Shown: one piece after another, positions 7,793-49,865 of the stretch
How the letters are laid out: every line of letters starts with the position of its first letter
How positions within the stretch are numbered: position 1 is the first letter of the stretch
NCBI GenBank assembly: GCA_017535315.1
Contig: JAFXUD010000061.1
Span: 1 to 51,550, forward strand
Length of the DNA stretch: 51,550 bases
Direction of reading: 5' to 3'
Source: Victivallales bacterium
GTDB lineage: Bacteria > Verrucomicrobiota > Lentisphaeria > Oligosphaerales > Oligosphaeraceae
Program-made: the position numbers and the translations under genes
Notes under the pieces: model-generated
Databases searched by the model: none
Seen by the model: the letters and a program-made list of their open reading frames with translations, nothing else
Told to the model about the DNA's origin: nothing

Positions 7793-7826
7793 TTCAAAAC
7801 TAGCGCATTTCGATACTAGTTTTGAA
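7793..7826. repeat. Stem-loop next to the MITE-like element
   Basis: Perfect 11-bp arms TTCAAAACTAG (7793-7803) and CTAGTTTTGAA (7816-7826) with a 12-nt loop. The same motif family (GAGGTAATTTC, AAAACTAGCGC) forms the hairpin at 11811-11845. The part GAAATTACCTC now lies beyond the mobile element, at 8115-8125, so the original hairpin was interrupted by the insertion. Confidence 0.65.
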
Positions 7827-7828
7827 AT

Positions 7829-8111
7829 GGGAATTATATACTTGAGTTTCCTGATGACATTATCCTTCATTGGTCGATGGCCAGGATGCGCCTTGCCGCT
7901 TCGCTGCGCTACGCGGCAAGGCTCAAGAGGACTGGGGTGGGCATCTGACCGTGGGTTTCGCTTCGCCGCTGTCGCGGCTTCGCTCCACCCACGGCTATGC
8001 TCTTGCCGCCGCTTACGCGGCTTCGCTCCACCCACCGCTATGCTTCTGCTGCCGCTACGCGGCTCTTCTTTGTTGGTAAGGTCCAATCGGCAACTAAAGT
8101 ATATAATTCCC
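7829..8111. mobile_element. MITE-like element, copy 1 (longest, 283 bp)
   Basis: Terminal inverted repeats GGGAATTATATACTTGAG and CTAAAGTATATAATTCCC, with a single mismatch. The element is flanked by a perfect 8-bp duplication TTTGAAAT (7821-7828 and 8112-8119). The inside holds GC-rich nested hairpins (CGTGGGT/ACCCACG and TGCGCCTTGCCGC-type arms) and no credible gene. Compared with copies 2 and 3 it is inverted and carries an extra internal duplication of about 40 bp. No transposase is in the window, so it would need one in trans. Confidence 0.85.
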
Positions 8112-8126
8112 TTTGAAATTACCTCG

Positions 8127-11810: not shown

Positions 11811-11845
11811 TGAGGTAATTTCAAAACTAGCGCGAAATTACCTCA
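11811..11845. promoter_or_regulatory. Hairpin spanning the eamA stop and the gpmI leader
   Basis: Perfect 12-bp arms TGAGGTAATTTC (11811-11822) and GAAATTACCTCA (11834-11845) around an 11-nt loop. The loop carries the EamA gene's TAG stop (11827-11829), and the arm nearest gpmI ends beside its Shine-Dalgarno. It shares sequence with the split hairpin at 7793-8125. It could affect coupling between the two genes. Confidence 0.6.
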
Positions 11846-40524: not shown

Positions 40525-40757
40525 AGGCAATTAGCAATTTGCAATTATTAAGAAGGGTAAGCCGCGTAGCGGCGAAAGAGCATAGCCGTGGGTGGCGCGA
40601 AGCCGCGAAAGCGGCGAAGCGAAACCCACGGGCAAGCAATACCCCAGTTCCTTTTGCGCCTTGCCGCGTAGCGAAGCGGCAAGGCGCAGAAAATCTGGCA
40701 TCCTGTGCCTATTGACATCCTCCTGCTGAATAGTTACATTGATAATTGCTAATTAAA
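40525..40757. repeat. Hairpin-rich repeat (core related to the MITE-like elements)
   Basis: Starts right after a stop codon. AATTAGCAATTTGCAATTAT (40527-40546) and ATAATTGCTAATT (40743-40755) form inverted ends made of the same heptamer as positions 1-182. The GC-rich core (40561-40690) shares the CGTGGGT/ACCCACG and TGCGCCTTGCCGC/GCGGCAAGGCGCA hairpins with the MITE-like elements but lacks their GGGAATTATATAC ends. The remainder to 40924 holds the rpsU promoter and leader. Confidence 0.75.
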
Positions 40758-43201: not shown

Positions 43202-43271
43202 TGTGGCGGCGTGCCATGCTTTCCCGACGTTGAGCGGCAGGCACAGGACAGCTGGTGCGTGGAAAAAGAAA

Positions 43272-43522
43272 GGGAATTATATACTTTAGTTGCCGATTGG
43301 ACTTTACCCACAGAGAAGAGTCGCGTAGAGCCGCGTAAGCGGCGGCAAGAGCATAGCCGTGGGTAGAGCGAAGCCGCGACAGCGGCGAAGCGAAACCCAC
43401 GGTCAGATGCCCACCCCAGTCCCCGTGCGCCTTGCCGCGTAGTGCAGCGAAGCGGCAAGGCGCATCCAGGCCATCGACCAATGAAGGATAATGTCATCAG
43501 GAAACTCAAATATATAATTCCC
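43272..43522. mobile_element. MITE-like element, copy 2 (251 bp)
   Basis: Ends GGGAATTATATACTTTAG and CTCAAATATATAATTCCC. Flanks AAAAGAAA (43264-43271) and AAAAGCAA (43523-43530) match 7 of 8, an imperfect target duplication. Opposite orientation to copy 1. Internal hairpins CGTGGGT/ACCCACG and TGCGCCTTGCCGC/GCGGCAAGGCGCA. The right flank is the left foot of a terminator hairpin. No coding content. Confidence 0.85.
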
Positions 43523-43574
43523 AAAAGCAAGGGGCGAAAGGTGTTCAAAAACCGCCTTTCGCCCCTTGCTTTTT
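43523..43574. terminator. Bidirectional terminator between tsaE and the oxidoreductase operon
   Basis: Perfect 19-bp arms AAAAGCAAGGGGCGAAAGG (43523-43541) and its complement (43555-43573) with a 13-nt loop. A-tract on one side and T-tract on the other make it work in both directions. 43575-43598 is a fragment of the 9-bp-unit repeat seen at 23243. Confidence 0.9.
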
Positions 43575-47753: not shown

Positions 47754-47992
47754 GGGAATTATATACTTTAGTTGCCGATTGGACTTTACCCACAGAGAAG
47801 AGCCGCGTAAGCGGCGGCAAGAGCATAGCCGTGGGTAGAGCGAAGCCGCGATAGCGGCGAAGCGAAACCCACGGTCAGATGCCCACCCAAGTCCCCGTGC
47901 GCCTTGCCGCATAGCGCAGCGAAGCGGCAAGGCGCATCCAGGCCATCGAGCAATGAAGGATATGTCATCAGGAAACTCAAGTATATAATTCC
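47754..47992. mobile_element. MITE-like element, copy 3 (239 bp)
   Basis: Ends GGGAATTATATACTTTAG and CTCAAGTATATAATTCC. Nearly identical to copy 2 along its length. The target duplication is unclear: TTTTTTGG precedes the element and recurs at 47998-48005, but 5 bp (TTTTG) intervene. It lies between buk and pta, against the terminator hairpin. No coding content. Confidence 0.82.
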
Positions 47993-48009
47993 TTTTGTTT
48001 TTTGGGGTA

Positions 48010-49205: not shown

Positions 49206-49235
49206 GCTTATCTGCTGAAATGTCTCACCTATTGA

Positions 49236-49378
49236 AAAGCGCCGTAGGCGCGATAAAACCTAGGCTTGGGTGGAGCGAGCGCCTTTGACGCGAGCGAAAC
49301 CCACGGGCAGGCGACACCCCAGTTCCTTTGCGCCGTGCCGCATAGCGTTGCGAAGCGGCAAGGCGCAGAAAAGCCAGC
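49236..49378. repeat. Hairpin-rich repeat, diverged core copy
   Basis: GCGCC-GTA-GGCGC (49239-49251), a CCCACGGGCAGG segment and TGCGCCGTGCCGC/GCGGCAAGGCGCA-type arms (49329-49367) align with the core at 40561-40690 and, more loosely, with the MITE-like elements. It lacks the GGGAATTATATAC ends. It lies in the 378-bp gap between buk and tmRNA, together with the promoters of both. Confidence 0.7.
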
Positions 49379-49446
49379 GGGTATTATCAATCGCTGAGGG
49401 ATTACTGTCTGCTGGAAAATTTTAGCGTTATTTTTGACATATTGAT

Positions 49447-49512: not shown

Positions 49513-49865
49513 GGGGACGAAATGGTTTCGACTGTCTAGGCAGATCGTAGGTCGCATGCGGAGGATGATCGTTGGCCTCCTTAATCATCGGTCAAAAAAA
49601 TAACTGCGAACAACGAACTCGCACTCGCGGCTTGAACCCGCGACGTCTTTACCTTGATGCCTAATATAGGATAAAGGCGAACGCATTAGGCTGGTTCAAC
49701 GACCGTGCACACGGGTCTGAGAACAAGAACTAACAGAGTGCTGCTTCCGCGGAGGTGTGCGTACACCACCAATCCCGTGGACTAAGACTAAATCGCGTAC
49801 TAAGCATGTAGAAGCCTGCAGGAAGTTTACTCAGGACGCGGGTTCAACTCCCGCCGTCTCCACCA
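49513..49865 (+). ncRNA. ssrA: Transfer-messenger RNA (tmRNA)
   Basis: A 353-nt tmRNA that rescues stalled ribosomes. The acceptor stem GGGGACG (49513-49519) pairs with CGTCTCC (49855-49861), followed by discriminator A and an encoded CCA (49863-49865). The T-arm GGTTCAACTCC precedes the 3' acceptor strand. The tag frame reads GCG AAC AAC GAA CTC GCA CTC GCG GCT TGA, giving the peptide ANNELALAA, which has the LAA ending recognised by ClpXP-type proteases. It is a one-piece, unpermuted form. The 3' end is a common integration site; island-like DNA begins just after it. Confidence 0.96.

Follow-up and report, generated by a model that had tools for sequence, protein, structure and literature searches.

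The window, that is, the whole stretch of 51,550 nucleotides analysed on contig JAFXUD010000061.1 of a Victivallales bacterium (the host), contains three copies of an element with inverted-repeat ends, hereafter family A. Copy 1 (7829-8111, plus strand) is a long form of 283 bp, the long-form consensus having 284 bp, and lies between two identical target duplications, TTTGAAAT, at 7821-7828 and 8112-8119. Copy 2 (43272-43522, minus strand, 251 bp) is flanked by AAAAGAAA (43264-43271) and AAAAGCAA (43523-43530), a 7/8 match. Copy 3 (47754-47993, minus strand, 240 bp) follows a hairpin and T tract, and no duplication was recognisable in its 8-bp flanks (TTTTTTGG/TTTGTTTT). An earlier note on this DNA had described the three elements, their ends and the duplications of copies 1 and 2; all were found again in the window sequence, except that copy 3 is one base longer than thought, ending at 47993 with a T instead of a C. 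The stem-loop placed beside each copy was likewise present: copy 1 resides inside a palindrome, and hairpins of -24.3 and -14.5 kcal/mol adjoin copies 2 and 3, respectively. The interior of copy 1 bears a hairpin core (7887-8022, plus strand) made up of a first hairpin and a module (7949-8022, plus strand), in which a CCGTGGGT...ACCCACGG stem is followed by a GCCGC/GCGGC hairpin; the module also occurs in flanks of Y1 transposase genes. In copy 3 the core spans 47801-47936 on the minus strand. The three mechanical ORFs crossing copies 1 and 2 were without any Pfam family. The fourth ORF, at copy 3, represents a gene for a phosphate acetyl/butyryl transferase with a Pfam match beginning at residue 91, thus only the over-long start of this ORF reaches the element.

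The palindrome around copy 1 (7793-7826, arms 7793-7803 and 7816-7826) is a member of a GAGGTAATTTC...GAAATTACCTC repeat family, for which 27 matches with two mismatches or fewer were counted in the stretches read, compared to 0 for a shuffled control. Copy 1 and a copy on C1 have the identical insertion position within this repeat. The palindrome also exists uninterrupted, with one intact member in the window at 11812-11844, and these members serve as paralogous empty sites for both copies. Two further MITEs in the window have other ends and a core as in family A. A degenerate copy of family B with GTAACTATTCAGAAGG-type ends occupies 40541-40737 (minus strand; core at 40560-40688, minus strand), and an element of family C with GTAATCCCTCAGCGATTGATA-type ends, one of them degenerate, occupies 49217-49405 (minus strand; flanks TATCTGCT/TGTCTGCT; core at 49243-49367, minus strand). 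The family C element is about 110 bases away from the tmRNA gene at 49513-49865, the sole Rfam match in the window that reached the gathering score.

The host assembly comprises 4,905,040 bases in 96 contigs and is 95.6 % complete. When up to two mismatches were allowed, the 15-bp tip of family A, GGGAATTATATACTT, matched 108 + 105 times in it and the reversed control 1 + 2 times; with 213 tips against 3 the family suggested by the window copies is real and beyond chance. The family numbers about a hundred copies in this genome. The window and 72 stretches around listed places, in total 675,658 bases, were read and the tips paired by script. This sample yielded 75 paired family A elements; 25 unpaired tips were excluded from the counts, several of which were located at contig ends, belonged to hybrids or came from copies whose other end had decayed. 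Among the 75, the element at C25:21515-21926 contains another element, and that on C70 pairs with a decayed tip. The core class comprised 56 copies (241-bp consensus, identity 0.78-0.98) and the long class 12 (284 bp), while 7 copies belonged to neither; two elements of about 103 bp in the host lack the core. Family A elements are short, have no transposase gene, end in terminal inverted repeats, occur in many copies and are flanked by target duplications, hence they are MITEs. Each tip contains an outward TATAAT, for which visual inspection gave no -35 match. The copies on C48 and C69 were considered as proof of a rearrangement, which was rejected since their common flank extends over only some tens of bases.

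Target duplications of 8 bp were exact in 22 of the 75 pairs and had at most one mismatch in 47, whereas each of the remaining lengths between 4 and 11 gave 0-4 exact flank matches. As a control, left flanks were paired with the right flanks of other copies in 2000 shuffles; exact matches then averaged 0.6, with a maximum of 4, and matches with at most one mismatch averaged 3.0. The 8-bp duplications of family A exceed chance. In 18 of the 75 copies the two flanks differ at three or more of the 8 positions. Target 8-mers were obtained by removing the element and one duplicate in silico. They contained on average 6.93 A/T of 8 versus 4.42 in intergenic DNA, and 64 % of them had at least six of one base versus 4.2 % of intergenic 8-mers. 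As a general rule, the target of family A is an A/T tract.

The earlier note had proposed a preference for terminators. Hairpins were scored with our own script at 73 of 74 sites, one being too near the stretch end. A hairpin of -8 kcal/mol or stronger adjoined the tract at 14 of the 73 sites, compared to 322 of 4000 random intergenic positions (8 %, p = 0.002) and 271 of 4311 composition-matched positions (6 %, p = 0.0002); without the three window copies the count was 12 of 70 (p = 0.013 and 0.0015, respectively). Hairpins of -15 kcal/mol or stronger adjoined 10 of the 73 sites, 90 of the 4000 random and 155 of the 4311 composition-matched positions, and 9 of 70 sites without the window copies. 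Such an enrichment would be expected if terminators, i.e., hairpin plus T tract, were targeted as structures. However, four fifths of the copies (59 of 73) lack a hairpin of -8 kcal/mol or stronger, for which reason terminator-specific insertion was rejected, and A/T tracts without hairpins are freely used, also between divergent genes: with ORFs of at least 120 amino acids as genes, 21 sites were divergent, 21 tandem, 11 convergent, 15 within an ORF (mostly at its extreme edge) and 6 of unknown context. We regard a targeting of terminator structures as unlikely. With insertion governed by the A/T tract, the elements can pile up at transcription terminators without terminator recognition, and terminator T-tracts may be one common source of A/T tracts in the GC-rich host genome. 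The preference noted before consequently persists as an enrichment and not as the general rule.

It had also been supposed that the element spreads without damaging genes. ORF interiors held 3 of 74 sites versus 34.5 expected for 8-mers of equal composition, the genes in this count being long ORFs chosen by script rather than a proper gene call; but selection against gene hits explains the scarcity inside genes as well as target choice does. At the junctions of T tract and GGG tip an extra G was observed, mostly on one side. In copies with the T tract on the left, an extra G on the tract side prevailed over an extra C on the other side in 21 versus 8 of 29 unequal pairs; this asymmetry may be biological or may stem from assembly error.

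Transposases with matching ends were found outside the host. A scan for GGGAATTATATACTTNNGTT over 84,980 species genomes yielded 26 stretches, with Victivallales or Lentisphaeria MAGs as the source of nine, which suggests the order to which the host belongs; viral contigs yielded none. The long elements L166 (2958 bp) and L175 (1973 bp) are bounded by family A-type tips and each by a perfect 8-bp duplication. Their transposases scored above the cut-offs for DDE_Tnp_IS1595 and Zn_ribbon_IS1595 and also above the NCBIfam IS1595 cut-off. Among the 29 genomes of the host's family, tips with at most one mismatch were present in 10 (166 in the host, 20 in the next best genome) and the IS1595 domain in 2. 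An intact element, L211:1014-4647, belongs to this family of genomes; it is 3634 bp long, has a perfect inverted repeat of 22 bp and encodes DDE_Tnp_IS1595 and Zn_ribbon_IS1595. Its tip differs at 2 of 15 bases from that of family A, and its 8-bp flanks (AAAAGTTG/AAATATAT) do not match each other. Between its ends L211 holds further ORFs besides the transposase, possibly passenger genes. Judged from these sequences, the ends of family A are shared with the autonomous IS1595-family elements L166, L175 and L211. Duplications of 8 bp are made by several DDE families, e.g., ISL3 and IS256, any of which could in principle have provided the ends, but all three autonomous elements with near-identical ends encode IS1595-family transposases, and an origin from another DDE family is extremely improbable.

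The earlier reading of family A as a non-autonomous transposon with 8-bp duplications therefore holds on a genome-wide count, and the type of transposase can now be named as IS1595. A transposase gene with the same ends, which that reading called for, is present intact elsewhere but not in the host assembly, where the IS1595 transposase domain had 0 matches in the 96 contigs. Because of this absence, mobilisation by an IS1595 transposase in trans is what we infer. An IS1595-family DDE transposase would recognise the GGGAATTATATACTT ends, cut A/T tracts with an 8-bp stagger and move family A in trans; the current mobility of the family in the host is putative.

The core is not confined to family A. 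The consensus sequences of families A and B have about 135 nt in common, with a score of 140 versus a shuffled maximum of 28. The GTAACTATTCAGAAGG ends of family B were represented in the host by 75 + 66 tips at up to two mismatches, the control by 0 + 1. Duplications of 8 bp were exact in 7 of 27 family B copies and had at most one mismatch in 14 of 27, with none exact at 5-7 or 9-11 bp. IS66 elements are characterised by ends starting with GTAA and by 8-bp duplications. Family B displays both features, and no IS66 DDE domain was detected in the host genome. Family C has few copies: two pairs with GTAATCCCTCAGCGATTGATA ends were recovered, both with the core, the window pair with a 7/8 duplication and the other without one. 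In the stretches read, 115 non-overlapping modules were counted, of which 64 were located between two family A ends, a share biased upwards by the choice of stretches around A ends, and 9 had no known end within 160 bases. Three unambiguous hybrids combine one A end with one B end (C38:43949-44317, C69:54801-55025 and C80:96949-97174). They were tried as transposition products and rejected, having no 8-bp duplication (four or more mismatches), which makes recombination in the shared core the likelier origin. The remaining A/B end pairs consist either of two adjacent elements or of ends that match by chance.

A search with the 132-nt core in the 29 genomes of the host's family gave matches in 10; in most genomes outside the host genus they covered the 3' half, i.e., the module. 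Four genomes without any family A tip, G020, G022, G023 and G025, contain the module, and in G020 it is organised in arrays with variant units. Y1_Tnp matches were present in 22 of the 29 genomes. Modules flanked 8 of 17 Y1 loci read, in each case with at least one module no more than 160 bases away from the Y1 domain, and were lacking at 9; four of the eight had been preselected for a known module, and among the 13 other loci the module was present in four. Among 30 shorter Y1 loci three had modules, all three belonging to the eight. The eight module-flanked Y1 proteins, which represent four genera of the host's family, group in a single clade of a tree of 32 rows (support 100/99; none of 500 shuffles was as low), some rows outside the clade being long or poorly aligned. 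Since other Y1 genes with a similar motif had no module, the link is to this one clade only.

Two of the eight genes are in the host, on C78 and C58. At the first (L295), modules flank the gene in inverted orientation, on the minus strand at one side and on the plus strand at the other. The modules on C78 agree with the family A consensus module in 66, 62 and 65 of 74 aligned columns. Around the second gene (L296, C58:15300-18087), 13 overlapping matches of a variant module form inverted groups. By eye, the motifs of the two proteins are DHIH, WQ and YIKNQEQHH (L295) and DHIH, WQ and YIFNQAVHH (L296). Both proteins were below the NCBIfam cut-offs for IS200 and for REP-associated transposases, the latter model giving 19.5 and 22.7 bits where its cut-off is 80. 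Searching the PDB with the sequence of the host Y1 protein returned nothing, and no GTAG/GTGG tag was seen by eye at the hairpin foot in the module sequences.

MITEs commonly arise as internal deletions of an IS. The hairpin interior might accordingly be native to an IS1595-type parent, with the MITE as its internal-deletion derivative and the likeness to the Y1 repeat secondary. Against such a parentage, L211 and L175 gave no match to the module, and the single match in L166 was not the module on inspection. The module furthermore occurs in the four tip-less genomes, in the arrays of G020 and beside Y1 genes, and the core is part of family B and, on few copies, of family C. A native interior is very unlikely.

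A set of 28 modules from five genera, hand-picked from the loci at hand, was inspected for covariation. Standard pairs made up 93.7 % of the pair cells, and compensatory changes were counted in 38 cells versus 13.1 in shuffled sets and at most 12 in slid versions; all three helices of the core module contained them. Conservation of this kind is also what a functional RNA or a terminator kept by the host would display, the transposon ends then being incidental. Yet REPs, which are palindromic mobile repeats, are described with compensatory changes too in the accessible part of PMC2817692. In addition, no Rfam family except tmRNA reached the gathering score in the window, and family A copies occur in both orientations (44 one way, 31 the other) and in all gene contexts. 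A host-maintained RNA is a highly improbable explanation of the core.

Taken as a whole, we are fairly confident that family A is a MITE moved by IS1595 to A/T tracts and that its interior is a captured Y1-associated hairpin unit, carried as cargo in several MITE families. The interior would then be no IS1595 leftover but a unit of the dispersed repeat that flanks a small Y1 (HUH) transposase clade close to 'subclass 1.2'. Captured between DDE-type ends, this unit would have been disseminated as cargo of at least two MITE families, and probably of three. The family A elements look like chimeras of two transposition systems. The sharing of the core between families is a plain observation; the direction, a capture of the unit by the MITEs, and any action of Y1 proteins on the hairpin unit are inferred. 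We advance only tentatively, and with considerable doubt, a cargo with two engines, where a subclass 1.2-like HUH/Y1 enzyme would keep the dispersed palindrome and at least two DDE types would move the MITEs. If this were true, the exchange of ends around one core would represent a class of non-autonomous element that is modular, and the Y1 proteins of the 'REP-less' subclass 1.2 would have a dispersed substrate. MITEs and REP-type palindromes are normally seen as distinct bacterial repeats with distinct enzymes. Here, one hairpin unit is found beside HUH-type genes, in stand-alone arrays of one relative and within DDE-type MITEs whose ends are of at least two kinds, probably three; thus it becomes possible to trace where a MITE interior came from.

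A literature search, with most subscription papers outside its reach, retrieved no paper that deals with MITEs in Victivallales, with an IS1595-derived MITE containing a core of this type or with a REP-type unit located within DDE MITEs. The following comparisons refer to the accessible parts of the cited papers. The IS1595 family comprises the groups ISPna2, ISH4, IS1595, ISSod11, ISNwi, ISNha5 and IS1016 (PMC8101967), and its member ISApl4 prefers A/T-rich 8-bp repeats (PMC12561309). Family A resembles it in the 8-bp duplications, the ends starting with G and, as for ISApl4, the A/T-rich targets (PMC12561309), but has no transposase, and its interior hairpins are missing from the autonomous relatives. 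Like the bacterial MITEs covered in the available text of PMC10969869, family A is short and gene-less, has inverted repeats and duplications, lies between genes and forms stem-loops. It departs from that description in its GC-rich interior, which corresponds to an HUH-transposase-associated repeat and recurs in MITEs with unrelated ends. With REP/BIME/RAYT systems, as far as the passages seen of PMC2817692 and PMC3733652 portray them, the module shares the dispersed palindrome, the inverted arrangement around a Y1 gene, the compensatory changes and, in one relative, the arrays. It differs in lacking the GTAG/GTGG foot tag, in its size of about 74 nt with two hairpins and in its presence inside DDE-type MITEs, and the associated transposase is below the NCBIfam REP cut-off. 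The TnpA-Y1 proteins of subclass 1.2 are characterised, in the portion of PMC6006769 consulted, by DH[IV]H, WQ and Y---Q--HH motifs and about 148 amino acids, without REPs and generally without terminal structures. The module-flanked Y1 proteins are similar in their length of about 150 amino acids, the DHIH, WQ and Y---Q--HH motifs and the low copy number; unlike subclass 1.2 as depicted there, their clade is flanked by a dispersed hairpin unit.
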